Below, one piece after another: positions 54,467 to 64,000 of a stretch of DNA of 64,000 nt. Source of the stretch: Zhongshania sp. (GTDB lineage Bacteria > Pseudomonadota > Gammaproteobacteria > Pseudomonadales > Spongiibacteraceae); the NCBI GenBank assembly GCA_018066965.1, contig JAGPVP010000026.1, positions 1 to 64,000 of the forward strand, read 5' to 3'. The position numbers were made by a program, and so were the translations under genes. The notes beneath the pieces were generated by a model. It made no database searches and had not been told where the DNA came from. It saw only the letters and a list, made by a program, of their open reading frames with translations. Numbering within the stretch: position 1 is the stretch's first letter; every line of letters starts with the position of its first letter.

Positions 54467-55888
54467 ATGCGTCGAACTAAGATTGTGGCCACGGTCGGGC
54501 CCGCTTGTGACTCTCGGGAAATTCTTGCTGAGATGATTAGCGCCGGGGTGAATGTATTTCGATTGAATTTTTCTCATGGTACGGCGGAAGAGCACGCTGA
54601 TCGCGCCGCGACGATTCGTGAATTGGCCGCCGAAGCTGGGGCCTATGTTGGTCTGCTGGGTGACTTGCAGGGGCCGAAGATTCGCCTGCGCAAGCTTGCG
54701 GTCGATCCCATTGAGCTTAAAAAAGGCACAGAGCTAATTTTGGACACTGAGCTCGCAGATGGCGAGGGTGATGCCGCACATATTGGTGTTGATTATGAGC
54801 CTTTGGCACGTTCGGTTAGTGCGGGCGACGTGTTGCTACTAGACGATGGCCGTTTGCGCTTGAGTGTAGATCGTGTCGAAGGTGAGAAAGTATTTTGCCG
54901 CTCGGAAAGCGTGGGTAAATTGCAGTCTCGTAAAGGCATTAATCGCTTGGGTGGTGGTTTATCTGCGCCAGCCTTAACCGACAAAGACATGGAAGACATT
55001 AAATTAGCAGCGAGAATTGGGCTTGATTTTATCGCGGTGTCCTTTCCTAGTAGCGCGGCAGATATAGAAGATGCGCGGGTAAAATTGGAAAGCGCAGGTT
55101 GCTTCGCTCACATCATCGGCAAAATTGAACGCGCCGAAGCGGTTGCCAACGATGAGCACCTCGATGATTTGATTCGCGCCTGCGATGGTGTGATGGTGGC
55201 GCGGGGCGATTTGGGCGTCGAAATTGGCGATGCGAGCTTAATCGGTCTGCAGAAACATATTATTAAACGTGCGCGGGTATTAAACCGTCCGGTTATTACT
55301 GCAACACAAATGATGGAATCCATGGTGAGCAGCCCAGTTCCTACCCGTGCAGAAGTCTTTGATGTTGCGAATGCGGTTTTAGATGGCACCGACGCAGTAA
55401 TGCTATCGGCAGAAACCGCCTCCGGCCTGTACCCCGTAGAAACCGTCAAAGCCATGGCCCGCAACTGCGAAGGAGCGGAACAGTACCCGTCGGCGCGCAA
55501 GTCTAGCTATCGCCTAGAGCGCAAGTTTGACACCGTTGAAGAAACACTGGCCATGAGTGCGGTGTACGCGGCAAATCATCAAGTCGGCGTCAAGGCGATT
55601 GTGTCGATGACCGAGACGGGTAAAACCGTATTACTTATGTCACGGCTGACTTCAGGTATTCCTATTTTTGCCTTTAGCCGCAAACCTGAGACCTGCAATC
55701 GAGTGAGCTTGTACCGTGGTGTTTATGCCATCGCTAGCCCTTCCGAAGGCATTGAAATCGCGGGCTGTGTAGAGGCAATTCGGCTGCGAGGCCATGTAGA
55801 AACGGATGACCTAATCCTAGGCACAACCGGTGATCAAGTCGGCGTGGATGGACACACCAATACTTTGAAAATAGTAAGAGTACATTGA
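54467..55888 (+). CDS. pyk: Pyruvate kinase
   Basis: A 473-residue pyruvate kinase: N-terminal TKIVATVGPAC, substrate loop FRLNFSHG, active-site IIGKIERAEAV with catalytic Lys, MVARGDLGVEIG, and the signature ITATQMMESM. It converts PEP and ADP to pyruvate and ATP. Length and C-terminal domain match the PykA-type allosteric enzyme. AAGGAT precedes the ATG. It stands alone, between two terminators. Confidence 0.97.
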   Translation: MRRTKIVATVGPACDSREILAEMISAGVNVFRLNFSHGTAEEHADRAATIRELAAEAGAYVGLLGDLQGPKIRLRKLAVDPIELKKGTELILDTELADGEGDAAHIGVDYEPLARSVSAGDVLLLDDGRLRLSVDRVEGEKVFCRSESVGKLQSRKGINRLGGGLSAPALTDKDMEDIKLAARIGLDFIAVSFPSSAADIEDARVKLESAGCFAHIIGKIERAEAVANDEHLDDLIRACDGVMVARGDLGVEIGDASLIGLQKHIIKRARVLNRPVITATQMMESMVSSPVPTRAEVFDVANAVLDGTDAVMLSAETASGLYPVETVKAMARNCEGAEQYPSARKSSYRLERKFDTVEETLAMSAVYAANHQVGVKAIVSMTETGKTVLLMSRLTSGIPIFAFSRKPETCNRVSLYRGVYAIASPSEGIEIAGCVEAIRLRGHVETDDLILGTTGDQVGVDGHTNTLKIVRVH

Positions 55889-55917
55889 TATTATAAGTTC
55901 GGTTTATTCGGTGTTAG

Positions 55918-55943
55918 AGGCTCCATTATATGGGGCCTTTTTT
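55918..55943 (+). terminator. Intrinsic terminator of pyk
   Basis: Stem AGGCTCC/GGGGCCT (one G-U pair; 55918-55924, 55932-55938), 7-base loop, then TTTTTT. Confidence 0.85.
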
Positions 55944-55993
55944 ATTACAATACTCATTGTTTTGTCGCGCTACTCGACCATAAGGTTAGAATT

Positions 55994-56440
55994 ATGAAAA
56001 GTGCCTATGTCATCGTCGGCATACTCTGTTTATTTTTGGGACTTTCGTATTATCTTGGATACACACCACTGGCCATTGGCGTCTTGTTTTTTTGCCTCAG
56101 CCTAGTGAGCTATTTTTATTATGCTAAGGACAAAAAGGCGGCTATTTCAGGTTCTTGGCGCGTGCCAGAAAATACCCTACATCTATTGTCGCTGTGTGGT
56201 GGCTGGCCTGGTGCTTTGTTGGCGCAGCAGCGATTACGGCATAAAACCAAGAAGCCTTCGTTTCGACTGATGTTTTGGTTTGCGGTGCTGGTCAATGTTG
56301 GCGGTTTAGCTTGGCTGCATACAATGGATGGCGAGCGGCTATTCAGGAGTGCACTGAATAGTGCTGGGGACTTGTGCCGTCAATACATAAGCTCCGAAGA
56401 ATTTTTGTCTGCGATATTGTTTGTCATTGAATTTCGATAA
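55994..56440 (+). CDS. DUF1294 membrane protein
   Basis: A 148-residue integral membrane protein with the DUF1294 core: YYAKDKKAAISGSWRVPENTLHLLSLCGGWPGAL (in parts: YAKDKKAA, WRVPENTLHLL, GGWPGALLAQQ) and RHKTKKPSF. Two or three membrane segments lie N-terminal and one follows the core. Many relatives carry an added cold-shock domain; this one does not. Function unknown. ATG 55994 has AAGG upstream. Confidence 0.88.
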   Translation: MKSAYVIVGILCLFLGLSYYLGYTPLAIGVLFFCLSLVSYFYYAKDKKAAISGSWRVPENTLHLLSLCGGWPGALLAQQRLRHKTKKPSFRLMFWFAVLVNVGGLAWLHTMDGERLFRSALNSAGDLCRQYISSEEFLSAILFVIEFR

Positions 56441-56493
56441 AAAAATAATTATTTATTGCTATGATTTTATACGTGATCGAAGGCGCTATGCTG

Positions 56494-56955
56494 TTAGCCT
56501 ACCAGCGCCATCGGTACTTCATGCCCCCACGCAGTATGTTCAATTTCTTGGTAGTTGCTGGCTTCTAACAAGGTATCTTTTAACATGGCCAGTAAGCTTA
56601 TCCAGGCTGCCTTTACATCACCGCTGAATTCGTCGCCGAGCGCCATTTCTAATGTTTCAAGCATGGCTTGAATAAAGAAATCGTAGTGACGTTCGGTTAC
56701 ACCTTGCTCGCTGTAACGCTGCCCCATGTTATGAGCGACGACTTTAAGTCCCTCCATATTTTGCAATGAGTGCACTGTGGTGCAAAGCGTGTTGATGAGC
56801 TTGCGATCTTTGGTGTCGCCAGCGCAGCTAAATAACGTTCGTAAATCTGGCGACAATTGAAATAGGCGTGCATAGAACACTTTGGCAAAGGGCTTGCCAA
56901 TAGATTTCACCGCATGTAGATGAGATTGCACGATAATAATTTGTTTAGGAGTCAT
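56494..56955 (-). CDS. Bacterial globin with Tyr in place of proximal His
   Basis: A 153-residue single-domain globin of the Vitreoscilla-haemoglobin type. It keeps B10 Tyr28 (VFYARLF), CD1 Phe42 (LRTLF), and the helix FG-G pattern EQGVTERHY then MALGDEFSGDVKAAW, which align without gaps to Vitreoscilla haemoglobin from the F8 residue onward. At F8, where haem-binding His85 sits in the VHb sequence (VKHCQAGV), this protein has Tyr81 (QRYSEQGV). A His lies six residues earlier (His75). It may bind haem differently or not at all. No reductase domain is fused. Confidence 0.82.
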   Translation of the reverse strand: MTPKQIIIVQSHLHAVKSIGKPFAKVFYARLFQLSPDLRTLFSCAGDTKDRKLINTLCTTVHSLQNMEGLKVVAHNMGQRYSEQGVTERHYDFFIQAMLETLEMALGDEFSGDVKAAWISLLAMLKDTLLEASNYQEIEHTAWGHEVPMALVG

Positions 56956-57158
56956 ATTGCGCCTCGCTATTTTTTTCGGCGGCTGGCGATGATAGATCGT
57001 CGCGTCGCGTGAATTTAAAGCTCCTTACTGATTGGACACGTTACACGTGCTGGCGTTACGTGATTATTCGAGATTACCGAGGTGTGTATACATAGTTAGC
57101 GTAGTGAATTGCGGTAATTCACTACCTCGATAGGGGTGTTTGCAGGAATTAAACGCGA

Positions 57159-57187
57159 AAACGCTATTCACGCGCTAAATAGCGTTT
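57159..57187 (-). terminator. Probable terminator of the SDR gene
   Basis: A 10-bp perfect stem (AAACGCTATT/AATAGCGTTT) with a 9-base loop lies 23 bases past the minus-strand SDR stop. The T run after it on that strand is short (TTTT then CGCG), so efficiency may be modest. Confidence 0.5.
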
Positions 57188-57209
57188 AAATAATGAGTTG
57201 GACGTAACG

Positions 57210-57983
57210 TTAATCTACGTTGGCGGCGCCTAAAAATGCGGGCTTTTCACCGCCGCCATGCAGGGTTAGGGTCGATCCGCTGACGTAGGACGCCAGATCA
57301 CTGGCTAGAAATAAGCAGGCGTCGCCGATGTCTTCGGGAATAGCCATTCGCCCCAAAGGGATCGTGTTGCCGATTGCTGCAATACCGGCTTCGTCGCCGT
57401 AGTGTAGATGGGCTTGCTCGGTGCGAATTAGGCCGGCGATGATAGTATTGCTCCGCACTTTGGGCGCCCATTCCACAGCGAGTGAACTTGTTAAGCTGAC
57501 TAAGCCGGCTTTTGCTGCGCCGTAAGCTGCGGTGCCTGGCGAGGGGCGGACAGCGCTGACCGAAGCGATATTGATAATGGCGCCGCCACTGTCTTGGTTT
57601 TGCATGACAGTATTGCATGATTGCGAGAAATTCAGTGGTGCCAGCAGATTTAGACGAATGATAGATTCTGAGAAACGCGGCGATACGGTTGCGGCATCAG
57701 CGGCGGGGGCGCCGCCGGCATTGTTTACCAATACGTCAATACGGCCATATTGACTAGCAACGGTATTGACTAAATTTTGAATAGCGTCGGCGTCGCGAAC
57801 ATCTATCGGGAAAAACACCGCCTCTTTACCGTCTGCGCTGGGCAATGTGTCGGGCTGGCTACGGCCGCAGATAATGACTGTCGCACCATGTTGGAGGAAG
57901 CGTTCGCTAATACCGCGTCCAACGCCTTTGCCTCCGCCAGTAACGATAACGACCTTAGCGCTGAAATCTAGTTTGTTCCGCAT
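57210..57983 (-). CDS. Short-chain dehydrogenase/reductase
   Basis: A 257-residue classical SDR: TGGGKGVGRG, NNAGG and YGAAK with Ser in ASVSA. It probably uses NAD(P) to convert a hydroxy or oxo group. ATG 57983 with GGAG 5 bases upstream is preferred over the longer frame to 58001. It stands alone, divergent from the F420 operon by about 500 bases. Confidence 0.9.
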   Translation of the reverse strand: MRNKLDFSAKVVIVTGGGKGVGRGISERFLQHGATVIICGRSQPDTLPSADGKEAVFFPIDVRDADAIQNLVNTVASQYGRIDVLVNNAGGAPAADAATVSPRFSESIIRLNLLAPLNFSQSCNTVMQNQDSGGAIINIASVSAVRPSPGTAAYGAAKAGLVSLTSSLAVEWAPKVRSNTIIAGLIRTEQAHLHYGDEAGIAAIGNTIPLGRMAIPEDIGDACLFLASDLASYVSGSTLTLHGGGEKPAFLGAANVD

Positions 57984-58489
57984 GTTAACTCCGCACTGCA
58001 TATTATTTGCTTGCTATTTATTTTCGCGGGGCAGTTCGTATTGCTACCTGACGCTAGCTAAGTTGGTTTTGCCAAGTTTACCGCATTTTTGTGTGCTCGG
58101 AATGGCGGTTGCGAATGCTTTGGTATTGATGATTTGTGAACGAAGCCCAGCGCACGTGGCTTGTAGCTTATTTTGTATAAGGGGTAGTCTGAAGGGACTA
58201 ATCTGAAATGCGTAATTGTGTTAGTGAGGGTGGCTGTTTAAATAAGAGAAGTTCACGCAAACACGTCAGGCGCGAGTCATAAATTGTAGCAATGCTAGAG
58301 GTTTTGAGCGGAACTACCAAAACGATAACATTTGTTGGGTGATAGACCGTTTTTGACAGTATTCGCGGTGGATTAAGACGTATACACTTAACTTTAGTCA
58401 CATTATATTTCGACGATCTTTACGCTTGAAGAATAGATTTAAAGCAGCTTGATCGACATGATGAATTGCATATAAAGAGAGATTTTTGA
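57984..58489. other. Intergenic region before the F420 operon
   Basis: The 506 bases between the SDR start and npdG hold no convincing gene; the frames within it lack ribosome sites. A/T-rich sequence around 58381-58440 is the likely promoter area, but I could not assign a good -35/-10 pair. AGAGAG precedes the npdG ATG. Confidence 0.4.
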
Positions 58490-59167
58490 ATGAAAGAAAG
58501 TAAAGCCGTAGTGGCAATTCTAGGTGGTACGGGTGGTTTAGGCACGGGATTGGCACGGCGCTGGGCCGAGGCGGGCTACCAGATTATTATTGGTTCACGC
58601 ACCCAAGAGAAAGCTGAAGCTGCAGCGCAAGAGCTGCGTGAACTCATGCAAGCGCGTGGCGTTGGTGATGTGGTGGTGGTGGCGATGGATAATGTATCTG
58701 CAGCTCAAGCGGCAGACATTGCTGCGTTAACGGTGCCTTTTGCCCACCATGCCGATACTTTGGCAAGCGTAAAAGACGCTTTGCAGGGCAAAATACTGAT
58801 CGACGTGACAGTGCCGTTGGTGCCGCCGAAAGTCGCACGCGTGCAATTGCCAGCGGAAGGATCTGCCGGCCAGATTGCTCAAAATATTTTGGGTGAGGGC
58901 GTTAGCGTCGTGTCTGCATTTCAAAATGTGGCGGCGGTGCATTTGCAAGATGGTCAAGGTATGGAGTGCGATGTACTGGTGTGTGGCGACAATAAAGAGG
59001 CTCGCGCCAAGGTTATAGAGTTAGTTGAGGCAGCGGGTTTGCGCGGCTTTCATGCTGGCAGTATCGCCAACGCGGCTGCGGTAGAGGCCATGACGTCGCT
59101 ACTTATTTTTATTAATAAACAATATAAATGCCATGCCGGAATTAAATTAACTGGGCTGGATGATTAA
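58490..59167 (+). CDS. npdG: NADPH-dependent F420 reductase
   Basis: A 225-residue F420H2:NADP+ oxidoreductase (Fno/NpdG family). The N-terminal Rossmann motif LGGTGGLGTGLARRWAEAG and the NADP-specific SRTQEKA after strand 2 are diagnostic, as is the C-terminal VEAMTSLLIFINKQYKCHAGIKLTG (in parts: SLLIFINKQYK). It moves hydride between NADPH and coenzyme F420, supplying reduced F420 to other enzymes. It heads the biosynthesis operon and overlaps the next gene by eight bases. Confidence 0.93.
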   Translation: MKESKAVVAILGGTGGLGTGLARRWAEAGYQIIIGSRTQEKAEAAAQELRELMQARGVGDVVVVAMDNVSAAQAADIAALTVPFAHHADTLASVKDALQGKILIDVTVPLVPPKVARVQLPAEGSAGQIAQNILGEGVSVVSAFQNVAAVHLQDGQGMECDVLVCGDNKEARAKVIELVEAAGLRGFHAGSIANAAAVEAMTSLLIFINKQYKCHAGIKLTGLDD

Positions 59168-59942
59168 TTCGATTATGGGCTCTTCACTTGTTCTTCATGC
59201 GGTATCGGGGATTCCTATGGTGGAGCCCGGTGATGATCTTGCTGAGTTGATAATAGTGGCTTTGGCAGCATCCGAGCAAAGTCTACAAGATGGCGACGTA
59301 TTGGTTTTGGCGCAAAAAATTGTGTCTAAAGCCGAGGGGCGCTACGCCTATTTAAATGACATAGAGCCTAGCGTTCAAGCTCGTGAATTGGCTGAGCAGT
59401 GTGATAAAGATCCGCGTCATATGCAGGTGCTGCTGAATGAATCCCGCGAGGTTATTCGTCAGCGTCCCGGCGTGGTGATCGTTGAACATGTGCTGGGTTA
59501 TGTACACGCCAATGCGGGGATAGATCGATCTAATATTAGTAGTGATGACGACAATCCGCGCCTGTTATTGCTGCCAGAGAGCCCAGATCGTAGTGCGGCG
59601 CAGTTGCGAGATGTGCTGCAAATGCGCTTAGGTGTGGCTGTGAATATTGTCATTAACGATAGCGCAGGTCGCGCGTGGCGCAATGGCACCCTAGGCTTCG
59701 CTATTGGCACCGCCGGTTTCGAGGCGCTAGAGAATCGGGTTGGTGAAAAAGATTTATATGGTCGGCCGCTTGAAATTACTGAAGTGGCCGTGGCCGACGA
59801 ATTAGCGGCAGCAGCCTCTTTTGTGATGGGGCAGGGCGATGAGGCATTGCCGCTAGTGCTTATTCGCGGCGCGAAATTACGACCATCAGCCAATGGCTCT
59901 GGAGCATTAATCCGTGATCGAGAAAAGGACATGTTTCGCTGA
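59160..59942 (+). CDS. cofE: F420-0:gamma-glutamyl ligase (CofE/FbiB N-domain)
   Basis: A 260-residue CofE: SGIPMVEPGDDLAELI, LAQKIVSKAEGR, NAGIDRSN and NDSAGRAWRNGTLGFAIG are family signatures. It adds glutamates to F420-0 with GTP. It lacks the C-terminal FMN reductase domain of actinobacterial FbiB (which totals about 450 residues), so any dehydro-F420 reduction needs another enzyme. ATG 59160 overlaps npdG; ATG 59175 is an alternative. Its stop overlaps the cofD ATG. Confidence 0.93.
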   Translation: MINSIMGSSLVLHAVSGIPMVEPGDDLAELIIVALAASEQSLQDGDVLVLAQKIVSKAEGRYAYLNDIEPSVQARELAEQCDKDPRHMQVLLNESREVIRQRPGVVIVEHVLGYVHANAGIDRSNISSDDDNPRLLLLPESPDRSAAQLRDVLQMRLGVAVNIVINDSAGRAWRNGTLGFAIGTAGFEALENRVGEKDLYGRPLEITEVAVADELAAAASFVMGQGDEALPLVLIRGAKLRPSANGSGALIRDREKDMFR

Positions 59943-60925
59943 TGACAGATGTAAATCTCGCCACAAAATTATCGTTTACAGGCAAGGTACTGGCCTTAAG
60001 TGGTGGTGTGGGCGGCGCTAAATTATGTCGGGGCTTAACGGCGACTTTGACGCCTGACCAGCTTACGATTGTTGCGAATACTGGTGACGACTTCGATTAC
60101 TGGGATTTGCGTATTTGCCCGGATCTCGATTCAGTGATGTATGCGCTGGCGGATTTAAATGACGAGGAACGCGGCTGGGGTTTACGTGATGAAACCTGGC
60201 GTACGCTGATAGCGATGCGCAGACTCGGCGGCGCCGAATGGTTTCAAATCGGTGACCAAGATTTAGCAACTCACATGTTGAGGACTCAGCTGCTGCGTGC
60301 AGGGCAGTCTTTGTCGGCGGTGACACAGCAAATCGCTGCAGGTCTGGGGATTACGCATTCACTGCTACCAATGTCTGAGCAAACAGTTGCTACCAAGGTG
60401 AATACCGATCAAGGTTGGTTAGATTTTCAGCAGTATTTTGTGCGTGATAAATGCCAACCTGAAGTGCGAGAACTGCATTTTGAGGGCGCAGACACTGCAC
60501 AATTAAATCCGCTGGTGAGTAGTTTATTGACGGACGAGGCCTTGGCTGCGATTGTAGTTTGCCCATCTAACCCCTTTGTGAGTATTGATCCGATATTAAG
60601 TTTGCCGGATTGTCGCGGCTTACTTAAAAAATCATCTGCGCCAGTCATTGCCGTATCGCCCATTATTGCTGGCCGAGCAGTAAAGGGCCCGGCAGCGAAA
60701 ATGATGCGTGAGCTTGATATGCCAGCAACAGCTTTGGCGGTGGCAGAGTATTACGGTGATTTACTGGATGGTTATGTATTAGATGAGGCTGACGCAGAGT
60801 ACGTAGATGACATCACTGCGCTAGGAATTCAAGTTTGTGTCGCGCCGACCTTGATGACAGACCTCAACAGTAAGATTGCACTTGCAGATGCGCTACTGAC
60901 ATTTGCGGCTAGCTTTAAAGCTTAA
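59942..60925 (+). CDS. cofD: 2-phospho-L-lactate (or phosphoenolpyruvyl/3PG) transferase CofD/FbiA
   Basis: A 327-residue CofD: the N-terminal LSGGVGGAKLCRGL, NTGDDFDYWDLRICPDLDSV (in parts: NTGDDFDYWDL) and WGLRDETWRTL are characteristic. It transfers the phosphorylated side chain from the nucleotide-activated precursor to Fo, giving F420-0 or its dehydro or 3PG form. The ATG overlaps the cofE stop (ATGA). A 74-base gap to cofC follows. Confidence 0.94.
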   Translation: MTDVNLATKLSFTGKVLALSGGVGGAKLCRGLTATLTPDQLTIVANTGDDFDYWDLRICPDLDSVMYALADLNDEERGWGLRDETWRTLIAMRRLGGAEWFQIGDQDLATHMLRTQLLRAGQSLSAVTQQIAAGLGITHSLLPMSEQTVATKVNTDQGWLDFQQYFVRDKCQPEVRELHFEGADTAQLNPLVSSLLTDEALAAIVVCPSNPFVSIDPILSLPDCRGLLKKSSAPVIAVSPIIAGRAVKGPAAKMMRELDMPATALAVAEYYGDLLDGYVLDEADAEYVDDITALGIQVCVAPTLMTDLNSKIALADALLTFAASFKA

Positions 60926-60999
60926 ATACTTTCGCTAAAGTAAGCTGCTGAACCATATTGATAATAATTAAATGTAAACGGATAGAAGCGTAAAACACT

Positions 61000-61743
61000 A
61001 TGTGGGCACTATTGCCGTTAAAAGATTTTGTACAGGCTAAGCAGCGTCTAGCGGGCAGTTTGACAGTGTCTGAGCGACGGGGTTTATTTCACGCGATGGT
61101 CGAGGATGTGCTGACAGTATTGGCGGCGCACCCCAGTTTTGAGCGCATCGTGGTGGTGTCAGATGATCCCGCTGCGCAGTTGTTGGCTGAGTATTACGGT
61201 ATAGATTGTTGGTCTGAGCGTGGCCTGGGGGTCAGCGGTTTGAATGATGTGGTCGCCGCTGCACTGCAAAAAATGGCTGAGCTTACCCACGCTCGGGTGA
61301 GCACTGCTACGGCGATGGTGGTACATGGCGATCTGCCTTTGCTGGGTGCGCAAGAACTAAACACGCTGATTGATCGGCACAAAACCTTAATGAAAACCCA
61401 TGGCTCGGCAGTAAGTATTGCCACCGATCGGCATGGGAGCGGCAGTAATATTTTAGTGTGTGACCCCGCCAGAGTGCCGGCCTTGTCTTACGGGCGAGAT
61501 AGTTGTGCTATTCACTTCGACGCCGCCTTGGCAATGCAATTACCAGCGCAGGTTATCTCCTTGCCGGGAATAGCGCAGGACATTGATACACGAGAAGACT
61601 TGCATCGTTTACTGGCTATACCGCCAAGCGCAGCAGCGGAGCGGACATTGGCGTATTTACATCAAGCCGGTATCGCGCAGCGATTAAGGCAATTGGACAG
61701 TGGCGCGGCAAATACGTCTACACAGGCTTGGAGTGCGGTATGA
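61000..61743 (+). CDS. cofC: 2-phospholactate-type guanylyltransferase CofC
   Basis: A 247-residue CofC/FbiD nucleotidyltransferase: LLPLKDFVQAKQRLAGSL near the start, VVVSDDP, and later VHGDLPLLGAQEL and DIDTREDLHRLL. It activates the phospho-three-carbon precursor (2-phospholactate, PEP or 3-phosphoglycerate, depending on the organism) for CofD. The specificity cannot be read with confidence. Its stop overlaps the fbiC start. Confidence 0.92.
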   Translation: MWALLPLKDFVQAKQRLAGSLTVSERRGLFHAMVEDVLTVLAAHPSFERIVVVSDDPAAQLLAEYYGIDCWSERGLGVSGLNDVVAAALQKMAELTHARVSTATAMVVHGDLPLLGAQELNTLIDRHKTLMKTHGSAVSIATDRHGSGSNILVCDPARVPALSYGRDSCAIHFDAALAMQLPAQVISLPGIAQDIDTREDLHRLLAIPPSAAAERTLAYLHQAGIAQRLRQLDSGAANTSTQAWSAV

Positions 61744-64000
61744 GGGATTTAGAATCCATGCTTTCTGATGTAAGTGAAAATGGCTTAGATGCTGAACAGG
61801 CTTTGTTATTGGCAGATATGACAGAGACTGAGTCGCTGATGACGGCAGCGGCGGCTTTACGTGATCGTGGTTTTTACAACGGCGTGAGTTATTCCCGTAA
61901 GGTGTTTATTCCGCTTACGCATTTGTGTAGAGACGTTTGTCATTACTGCACTTTTGCAAAAACGCCAAAAAAAATAGAGCAAGCGTATCTACCTGTTGAG
62001 CAAGTATTAGCGCAGGTAAAAGTCGCTGAGAGCATGGGCTGTAAAGAGGCGCTGTTTACGCTTGGTGAGAAACCTGAGTTGCGTTACAAGGCAGCACGCG
62101 AGGCGCTTGCCGAAATGGGTTTTGCCACTACCTTAGAATACCTTGCCGATGTTGCAGGACGGGTTTTGGCAGAAACCAATGTGCTCCCGCATATCAATGC
62201 GGGCTGTATGGACGAGGCAGAAATTGCCATGTTGCGTCCGGTTTCTGCATCCATGGGTATCATGCTTGAGTCTGCTTCGAGTCGCTTATGCGAAAAAGGT
62301 ATGCCGCACTATGGTTCGCCTGATAAAGATCCTGCGCTGCGTTTAGAGACCATTGCGCGGGCAGGTAGAGCGAAGGTGCCGTTTACCTCAGGCATCTTAA
62401 TTGGAATTGGCGAAACTCGTCGCGAGCGAGTGGAGTCCTTATTGGCCTTGCGTGATTTGCATGAGCGCTACGGCCATCTTCAAGAAATAATAATTCAAAA
62501 TTTCAGAGCCAAACCAAATACCAAAATGGCCACTGCTCCCGAGCCAGATCTGAATGAATTATTATGGACTATTGCCGTTGCACGCTTGATTTTTGGATCG
62601 CAGATGAGCATTCAGGCGCCGCCAAATTTGAGCCCCGGTGTGCTGCCGCAATTGGTGGCTGCTGGGCTAAATGACTGGGGCGGCGTATCGCCTTTAACCC
62701 CTGATTTTGTCAATCCCGAAGCACCGTGGCCACATTTAGAAACCCTCACCAAAGAAACAGCTGGGGCGGGAAAATATTTGCATGAACGGCTGACAATTTA
62801 CCCTAAATACGTGCGCGATTACACGCGCTGGTTAGATCCGGCTTTGCATACCAAAGTGTTGCATTACAGCGACGGCCAAGGCTTACCCAAAGAAGATAAT
62901 TGGGTAGCAGGGCAGGATATTGAGGCACCGAAAGCGGAGCTAGATTTACTGCGACCAGAGCCTGAACTATTAAAAGACTATGCGCCGGTATCGGTAGATA
63001 TCACGCGATTGTTAGAGCGGGCACTGCGTGCAAAAGCCTTAAACGAAAATGAGATAGTTCGCCTATTTAGCGCACGCGGTAGTGACTTTGCGGCGGTGTG
63101 TCACGCAGCTGATCAGCTGCGTCAACAGCAGTGCGGTGATAGGGTAAGTTATGTTGTTACGCGCAATATTAATTACACCAATGTCTGTTACTTCAAATGT
63201 CAGTTCTGCGCATTTTCAAAAGGCAAGCTAAGCGAAAATTTGCGCGGCCGTCCCTATGATTTATCAGGCGAAGAAATAGCGCGACGCGCTACCGAGGCGT
63301 GGCAGCGGGGTGCTAGCGAAGTGTGTATGCAAGGGGGAATACACCCGGAATACACCGGCCAAACCTACCTCGATATTGTGGCAACGCTGCGCGCGGCGAC
63401 GCCGGATATGCATATTCATGCCTTCTCGCCCCTAGAAGTGTGGCAGGGCGCAGAAACCTTGGATCTAGATTTAGAAAGCTATTTGCAGCAACTTAAAGAC
63501 GCGGGTTTACATACTCTGCCAGGCACCGCAGCGGAAGTGCTGGATGATGATGTGCGAGCAGTATTATGCCCAGATAAAATAAATACTGAGCAATGGTTAG
63601 CGGTAATGGCTGCCGCTCATAAGGTGGGGCTGCGTTCGACGGCAACCATTATGTATGGTCATGTTGATAATTATCAGTCTTGGGCGCGGCACTTACTTGC
63701 AGTGCGACAATTACAGGCAAAAACCGGCGGTTTTACTGAGTTTGTGCCGCTGCCATTTGTACCGCCAGAGGCGCCTATTTACTTAAAAGGCCGAGCTCGG
63801 CGCGGGCCTAGTTTCCGCGAGGCGGTGCTGATGCACGCAATCGCAAGGCTGGTTTTTAATGGCCTAATCGACAACATTCAAGCTTCTTGGGTGAAGATGG
63901 GTGAACAGGGCGTAGAGGCTTTACTTAACGCTGGTGTGAATGATCTTGGTGGCACCTTGATGAACGAAACTATCACCCGGGCCGCCGGTGCGGTGCATGG
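61740..64000 (+). CDS. fbiC: FbiC (fused CofG-CofH) Fo synthase, truncated by window end
   Basis: The start of a fused 7,8-didemethyl-8-hydroxy-5-deazariboflavin (Fo) synthase; 753 codons are visible without a stop. The CofG half has the radical-SAM cluster Cys63, Cys67, Cys70 (CRDVCHYC); the CofH half has Cys483, Cys487, Cys490 (CYFKCQFC) and near the window edge VNDLGGTLMNETITRAAGA. It makes the Fo chromophore from a tyrosine and a ribityl-pyrimidine. Actinobacteria usually have this fusion, whereas archaea have two separate proteins. ATG 61740 overlaps the cofC stop. Confidence 0.95.
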   Translation, partial: MRDLESMLSDVSENGLDAEQALLLADMTETESLMTAAAALRDRGFYNGVSYSRKVFIPLTHLCRDVCHYCTFAKTPKKIEQAYLPVEQVLAQVKVAESMGCKEALFTLGEKPELRYKAAREALAEMGFATTLEYLADVAGRVLAETNVLPHINAGCMDEAEIAMLRPVSASMGIMLESASSRLCEKGMPHYGSPDKDPALRLETIARAGRAKVPFTSGILIGIGETRRERVESLLALRDLHERYGHLQEIIIQNFRAKPNTKMATAPEPDLNELLWTIAVARLIFGSQMSIQAPPNLSPGVLPQLVAAGLNDWGGVSPLTPDFVNPEAPWPHLETLTKETAGAGKYLHERLTIYPKYVRDYTRWLDPALHTKVLHYSDGQGLPKEDNWVAGQDIEAPKAELDLLRPEPELLKDYAPVSVDITRLLERALRAKALNENEIVRLFSARGSDFAAVCHAADQLRQQQCGDRVSYVVTRNINYTNVCYFKCQFCAFSKGKLSENLRGRPYDLSGEEIARRATEAWQRGASEVCMQGGIHPEYTGQTYLDIVATLRAATPDMHIHAFSPLEVWQGAETLDLDLESYLQQLKDAGLHTLPGTAAEVLDDDVRAVLCPDKINTEQWLAVMAAAHKVGLRSTATIMYGHVDNYQSWARHLLAVRQLQAKTGGFTEFVPLPFVPPEAPIYLKGRARRGPSFREAVLMHAIARLVFNGLIDNIQASWVKMGEQGVEALLNAGVNDLGGTLMNETITRAAGAVH

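Follow-up and report, generated by a model that had tools for sequence, protein, structure and literature searches.

How does a marine gammaproteobacterium complete coenzyme F420 when the enzyme of the last step is not found with the others? The question is raised by the right-hand end of the window, a stretch of 64,000 nucleotides corresponding to bases 1–64000 of contig C90 (JAGPVP010000026.1; 91,867 bp) in a metagenome-assembled genome (MAG) of Zhongshania, where npdG, cofE, cofD, cofC and fbiC lie one behind the other. This is a real, complete and conserved F420 operon of an ordinary kind, and ordinary for the relatives of its host; leaving aside the choice of C3 acid, we hold with high confidence that it is an intact operon of the proteobacterial type and serves the role set out below. 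A search of the literature for 'Zhongshania' together with 'F420' found no earlier description of such an operon in this genus. There is demand for F420-dependent reductases in biocatalysis and in the breakdown of pollutants, and knowledge of them comes mostly from mycobacteria and methanogens; Zhongshania offers cultured gammaproteobacteria with a compact operon and several likely user enzymes. The main points of interest are the last enzyme, which was not found, and two close relatives in which the entire F420 system is missing.

Gene identity was assigned with NCBIfam equivalog profiles and their curated cut-offs, and all five genes score above cut-off (Table 1), which bears out the preliminary description of an F420 operon at 58490–64000. 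Even as cut by the end of the window, fbiC reaches 1105 bits against a cut-off of 1018 for the bifunctional CofGH profile. Reading the contig past position 64000 adds 211 bases and a normal stop (L010 3729-6212), giving a protein of 827 amino acids from a TTG or 823 from an ATG, and a premature stop in fbiC beyond the window, the possibility raised in that description, is thereby excluded. The likely start is the ATG, which would overlap the cofC stop by 4 bp (ATGA, 61740-61743). The order is tight, as had been claimed, with overlaps also between npdG and cofE (8 bp) and between cofE and cofD (1 bp), but it is not overlapping throughout; cofD and cofC are separated by a 74-bp gap (60926-60999). 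Both radical-SAM triads of FbiC (C63/C67/C70 and C483/C487/C490 in the 823-residue numbering) are invariant in 14 of 14 aligned FbiCs, and the locus combines this FO synthase with CofC, CofD and CofE equivalogs.

With enzyme steps taken from established family knowledge, FbiC would produce FO, CofC would activate a C3 phospho-acid with GTP, CofD would join the activated acid to FO, and CofE would add the glutamate tail. NpdG is then predicted to reduce F420 with NADPH, and the resulting F420H2 would supply luciferase-like (LLM) and DDN-type reductases encoded elsewhere in the genome. Judged by gene content, F420 is presumably made in these cells.

Table 1. The F420 operon and features of its left flank, in window positions.
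Feature	Coordinates	Strand	Basis and remarks
npdG (fno), NADPH-dependent F420 reductase, 225 aa	58490..59167	+	TIGR01915, 208 bits vs cut-off 150
cofE, stand-alone F420-0:gamma-glutamyl ligase, 260 aa	59160..59942	+	TIGR01916, 279 bits vs 181
cofD, 2-phospho-L-lactate (or PEP-type) transferase, 327 aa	59942..60925	+	TIGR01819, 302 bits vs 257
cofC, guanylyltransferase, 247 aa	61000..61743	+	TIGR03552, 120.5 bits vs 105; Gly165 at the 3-PG-diagnostic Ser position
fbiC (cofG-cofH fusion, FO synthase), 823 aa from ATG 61740	61740..64000 in the window, end at contig base 64211	+	bifunctional CofGH profile
pyk, pyruvate kinase	54467..55888	+	PF00224 + PF02887; left neighbour of the F420 module in 11/16 F420-positive congeners
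single-domain globin	56494..56955	-	Pfam Globin; neighbour in 9/16 F420-positive congeners, own included
SDR oxidoreductase (NF005893/PRK07856)	57210..58001	-	profile match; divergent from npdG; frequent operon partner
SDR-npdG divergent intergenic region	58002..58489
perfect inverted repeat TAGTC-N6-GACTA, candidate operator	58185..58200		in 7/11 aligned congeners, own included
conserved block before npdG, candidate promoter/regulator site	58345..58392	+	alignment of intergenic regions

The distribution of these genes was followed in a set of 38 related genomes (18 of the genus, the host MAG included, 3 of a second genus of the family, which is Spongiibacteraceae in NCBI taxonomy, and 17 from elsewhere in the order) and in an even class-wide draw of 370 genomes that also includes the MAG. 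CofD scores above cut-off in 26 of the 38 relatives, made up of 16/18 in the genus, 3/3 in the second genus and 7/17 elsewhere in the order; CofC does so in 26 and CofH in 25, the odd one being G020, whose FbiC is cut at a contig end. CofD, CofC and CofH thus co-occur across the relatives. By the CofD cut-off and leaving out the host MAG, 15 of 17 congeners, 3 of 3 genomes of the second genus and therefore 18 of 20 in the family are F420-positive, as against 14 of 369 others in the class-wide draw (15/370 with the MAG; a further genome, G117, holds two sub-threshold pieces at contig ends). F420 is therefore uncommon class-wide but the norm in this family, and the rarity in Gammaproteobacteria stated in the preliminary description holds for the class and not for the family. 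The F420 genes of Colwellia psychrerythraea 34H have reportedly been known since the 2005 genome paper of Methe and co-workers, and with this precedent F420 genes in Gammaproteobacteria are not new. An NADPH-dependent F420 reductase is annotated in that strain (PMC4744452), and the string 'gammaproteobacteri' is absent from the main text of a review of the field (PMC8498797).

The surroundings of the operon are conserved as well. In all 16 F420-positive congeners (host MAG included) cofE-cofD are followed downstream by dapA and a gene for a PF03547 transporter, with a divergent gene for a short-chain dehydrogenase/reductase (SDR) in 15, a second SDR gene downstream in 14, and pyk often on the left (Table 1). 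The second genus has pyk-SDR-npdG in G018 and G020, and in G019 a pyk-like piece is partly seen at a contig end. The two F420-negative congeners, G011 and G014, lack any CofD match, and neither CofH nor CofC scores above cut-off in them; at the empty site pyk directly adjoins the transporter gene, at a distance of 95 and 34 bp. These genomes are sisters (bootstrap 96, SH-aLRT 100, in a tree of three neighbouring proteins from 20 genomes, some with partial data); with the second genus as outgroup, a single loss is the simplest account of the absence. The operon thus appears to have been passed down within the family and not to be a recent acquisition, and seems able to be lost as a unit, leaving close relatives without the whole F420 set that amount to a natural knock-out.

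Likely users of the cofactor are encoded outside the window. The preliminary description had placed F420-dependent enzymes elsewhere and proposed a genome search for luciferase-like and DDN-type proteins; that search finds ten LLM proteins (PF00296) and two DDN-type proteins (PF04075, on contigs C36 and C23), none of them on C90. Six of the LLM proteins score above an F420-subfamily cut-off (three for TIGR03559 and one each for TIGR03617, TIGR03857 and TIGR03619), three more are TIGR03619-like but below cut-off, one of them by 0.1 bit, and the tenth belongs to the MsnO8 group, which is not named as an F420 family. Among the 38 genomes, PF04075 occurs in 21 of 26 F420-positive (missing from G001, G015, G024, G031 and G036) and 0 of 12 F420-negative ones, and the median number of LLM genes per genome (E up to 1e-10) is 9.5 in the positives vs 0.5 in the negatives, which have at most one. 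G011 and G014 have no DDN-type genes and nearly no LLM genes. Isocitrate lyase, RraA, isocitrate dehydrogenase kinase/phosphatase, a P450-like protein, a transposase, fructose-bisphosphatase and others are encoded next to three LLM loci and one DDN-type gene, and no common pathway was seen among these neighbours. On contig C6 (L013:25-5958), the gene for an Rv3520c-type LLM protein is flanked by rraA and the gene for isocitrate dehydrogenase kinase/phosphatase; isocitrate lyase is encoded close by.

How the cofactor is finished would depend on the C3 acid; the mycobacterial-type route from phosphoenolpyruvate ends with a known reductase, FbiE, either fused to CofE or free-standing. That most producers lack a reductase domain on CofE is already published (PMC7253369); added here is a search for FbiE across whole genomes. 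With the FbiE/FbiB-C profile TIGR03553, none of the 38 genomes, 26 of them F420-positive, exceeds the cut-off of 249.55; the best match has 74.8 bits, and the eight top matches with DNA compared are closest to the MAG's own BluB-type protein. The controls were Rhodococcus FbiB, at 312 bits, and a presumed FbiE of Thermomicrobium, a nitroreductase encoded beside cofD-cofC with 38% identity to Rhodococcus FbiB-C, at 163 bits. A free-standing FbiE is described as being in use in Thermomicrobium (PMC8498797, PMC7253369); the Thermomicrobium roseum cluster shares CofD and CofC with the operon of the window, where its FbiE-like nitroreductase was not found. Gene layouts were also counted by hand at named FbiC loci, the best 80 of 581 matches, a set that leans to close relatives. 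An FbiE-like nitroreductase gene lies near fbiC in two of these 80, both betaproteobacterial (L316, Cupriavidus numazuensis; L318, an Alcaligenaceae MAG), and on this evidence some proteobacteria may use a route from phosphoenolpyruvate (PEP).

The CofC of the window bears on the same question. Its Gly165 stands at the position where Ser162 of the Mycetohabitans enzyme is reported to mark use of 3-phospho-D-glycerate (3-PG) (PMC8764529); Gly is found there in 18 of 18 aligned CofCs of the class, this one included, and in M. tuberculosis FbiD, and within the aligned set Ser occurs in Mycetohabitans only. The switch to 3-PG is supposed to have arisen in a background without 2-phospho-L-lactate (2-PL) or reductase (PMC8764529). 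The present lineage seems to be without the reductase and yet, to judge by this residue, not to have switched to 3-PG. The simplest answer, held tentatively, is that the C3 acid is 2-PL, which pyruvate kinase might supply through a side activity, given that 2-PL is reported among its minor by-products (PMC6904873). The frequent position of pyk next to the operon would hint at that source; this adjacency is suggestive only, because the same right-hand neighbours follow pyk where F420 genes are absent and pyk is not beside the operon in some F420-positive congeners.

Several points weigh against an F420 operon with this role, or against 2-PL as its substrate. The host genome is only of MAG grade (3.66 Mb in 127 contigs, 84% complete, 6% contaminated). 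The co-occurrence statistics take no account of kinship, and the pair of F420-negative congeners counts as one event; among the F420-positive genomes, G031 has no LLM gene and G024 and G036 have one each, and none of these three has a DDN-type gene. The fetched 4-6 kb of left side does not contain pyk in G007, G008, G009 or G017, the last being the nearest relative (in G004 the left stretch is too short to judge). The presumed FbiE control itself falls under the curated cut-off (163 vs 249.55), and a diverged FbiE could score low; for this reason the telling gap is that between 163 and 75 bits. Lastly, published accounts state that bacteria, like most organisms, do not contain 2-PL in abundance (PMC8498797, PMC7253369), which speaks against a 2-PL route.

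It is also possible that CofC and CofD make dehydro-F420-0 from PEP, which would then be reduced by an enzyme missed by the FbiE profile, the candidates being the divergent SDR beside npdG or an NfnB-like nitroreductase elsewhere in the genome. PEP is a central metabolite, Gly165 is compatible with PEP as well as with 2-PL, and in several families the SDR gene is linked to npdG, while G011 and G014 have neither the SDR nor the operon. Against this, 4 of the 26 F420-positive genomes lack the SDR, and 3 of the 12 F420-negative genomes carry it. We know of no biochemistry linking an SDR to dehydro-F420 reduction. The MAG encodes four nitroreductases, namely a BluB-type protein on C109 (above the BluB cut-off), a PRK10828-like protein on C84 (below cut-off), and NfnB-like proteins on C22 and C23. 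A nitroreductase as dehydro-F420 reductase was set aside, as neither NfnB-like type seems to follow F420, some nitroreductase matches being judged by lengths and scores only: the C23-type was found in G009 (L183), and the C22-type in G015 (L184) and also in the F420-negative G011 and G014.

Dehydro-F420 could itself be the mature cofactor of the lineage, in keeping with the lack of any reductase found; we think this unlikely, given that dehydro-F420 is reported to be less stable (PMC8764529, PMC8498797). A Mycetohabitans-like pathway to 3PG-F420, in which CofC uses 3-PG and no reductase is needed, would explain the absence of FbiE, and the 3-PG enzyme (7p97) is the better of the two solved CofC relatives. 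The Gly that replaces the diagnostic Ser/Thr in all the aligned CofCs of the class makes this pathway very improbable, and it was rejected on that residue.

Returning to the plausible use of 2-PL together with the route from PEP, marine gammaproteobacteria might finish F420 with neither an FbiE-type reductase nor 3-PG. Either 2-PL would come from pyruvate kinase, making F420 synthesis a sink for a damaged glycolytic metabolite, or a new dehydro-F420 reductase that is not a nitroreductase, such as the divergent SDR, would act at the end of the pathway; as a general proposal this is rather doubtful. The failure to find the reductase turns the source of the C3 linker in Gram-negatives with neither FbiE nor a 3-PG-type CofC into a testable question.

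The pairing of a fused FbiC with a stand-alone CofE had been read in the preliminary description as a sign of mixed ancestry or transfer; one such mixture would be an actinobacterial fbiC joined to an archaeal-like cofE. FbiC is indeed fused as in Actinobacteria, and the three solved CofE relatives that surfaced are of the archaeal CofE kind. The same layout, npdG-cofE-cofD-cofC-fbiC with stand-alone CofE and fused FbiC, is however common in other proteobacteria, occurring in 48 of the best 80 of 581 named loci (mostly Gamma- and Alphaproteobacteria, one betaproteobacterium and five Acidobacteriota); of the other 32, 19 have fbiC without other genes in the stretch, 8 have no npdG in view and 5 differ in set or order. 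Quick trees were built for FbiC, CofD, CofE and NpdG, not CofC, with five or six actinobacterial rows, none of them in the NpdG tree. The FbiC tree (98 rows, LG+G4, SH-aLRT support only) took 11 of the 26 available loci of the MAG and its relatives; rows under 700 amino acids were left out and those over 950 trimmed to the last 830 residues. It unites 45 named gammaproteobacterial rows and these 11 in one 59-row set (support 90), along with one Azoarcus row and two proteobacteria without class, while the five actinobacterial rows are separate and have one Sphingobium plasmid row next to them. A starred branch (99) of the CofD tree separates 85 proteobacterial and acidobacterial rows from the archaeal, thermomicrobial and actinobacterial rows; a Variovorax row and an alphaproteobacterial row fall outside the 85. 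The CofE tree, in which a mis-cut row of Tsukamurella has a very long branch, places the gammaproteobacterial rows inside a 73-row set without Actinobacteria (support 91). Gammaproteobacterial rows are not strictly one clade, the minimum number of label changes being 5 (CofD), 3 (CofE) and 3 (NpdG); starred branches require 1, 1 and 2 of these changes, respectively. These trees thus place all four proteins of the window in a single proteobacterial and acidobacterial radiation; in the FbiC, CofD and CofE trees, quick as they are and with so few actinobacterial rows, those rows stay outside it and no nesting among Actinobacteria was seen. With the layout common and the tree placement proteobacterial, the claim of mixed ancestry falls, and a recent joining of foreign genes has hardly any credibility left; these trees leave untouched, and do not contradict, the proposal made in reviews that the Proteobacteria as a whole received the genes by an old transfer. 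The probability of misassembly, contamination or decay is negligible despite the 6% contamination of the MAG, because the same operon is present in other genomes of the genus, one of which (G010) is a single contig, its genes are 97-99% identical in G017, and all five reading frames are intact.

The FbiC of the window is closest to those of Zhongshania sp. BJYM1 (89%) and Z. antarctica (87%) and groups with both in the tree, and the FbiCs of G013 and G018 are identical in the tree to those of Neomelitea salexigens and Litorivivens lipolytica. One record, L261, is titled as a Klebsiella pneumoniae MAG, but its FbiC groups with an uncultured gammaproteobacterium, and the MAG is probably mislabelled or mixed. 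The operons of Z. antarctica, Zhongshania sp. BJYM1, N. salexigens, L. lipolytica, Halioglobus/Halieaceae MAGs and BD1-7 clade SB11_3 share gene order, stand-alone CofE, fused FbiC and the divergent SDR; they show no essential difference from the operon described here, only varying protein identity. Alphaproteobacteria and Acidobacteriota (Kaistia granuli, Holophagales MAGs) have the same five genes in the same order but no divergent SDR of this type. Plasmid 2 of Aromatoleum aromaticum EbN1 likewise carries npdG-cofE-cofD-cofC and a fused FbiC with no FbiE-like gene in the stretch; it differs in that fbiC comes first, on a conjugative plasmid, and its FbiC is 60% identical. The actinobacterial Fbi pathway shares the fused FbiC and homologous FbiA and FbiD, but there CofE is fused to FbiE in FbiB (L324, L332-L334), whereas here CofE stands alone and FbiE was not found.

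Among the relatives, several rearrangements of the locus were observed. In G003 (L055) and G009 (L061) the operon is split, with cofE-cofD at the ancestral locus and cofC-fbiC elsewhere in the genome. In G017 (L041) the globin, SDR and F420 genes are 97-99% identical to those of the window, yet no pyk lies in the 3.9 kb past the globin gene; comparison with the left flank of the window (54467-58001) suggests a rearrangement or insertion on one side. CofC is fused to the N-terminus of FbiC in a single frame of 1000-1080 amino acids (CofC-CofG-CofH) in Seongchinamella unica (L247:5236-8472), G036 (L063:4492-7497) and G037 (L156/L123); the families were confirmed for L247 and L063, and the G037 case comes from a shared open frame only. 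An apparent CofD-CofC fusion in L272 was not borne out on re-examination and was dropped.

The divergent SDR is an associated but non-exclusive partner of the operon, being found in 22 of 26 F420-positive but also in 3 of 12 F420-negative relatives (Fisher p 0.0006, kinship ignored). It lies next to npdG and faces away from it in 13 of the 16 F420-positive congeners, lies next to cofE in G003 and G009, whose locus has no npdG, and is missing from G015; further afield, it is 1.4 kb from npdG in G033 and on a different contig from cofD in G037. Among those of the best 80 of 581 named loci with npdG and more than 1.3 kb upstream, it is present in 11 of 29 gammaproteobacterial and 0 of 17 other loci. 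A scan of the SDR-npdG intergenic region for sigma-70 promoters gave nothing above chance. The inverted repeat in this region is identical in the seven congeners that have it apart from one spacer base, and occurs once in the window vs 0.01 expected, for a pattern picked after the alignment was seen. The SDR-F420 link spans Spongiibacteraceae and Halieaceae, and steroid degraders have been reported among isolates of these two families, as well as in a Colwellia (PMC5790920).

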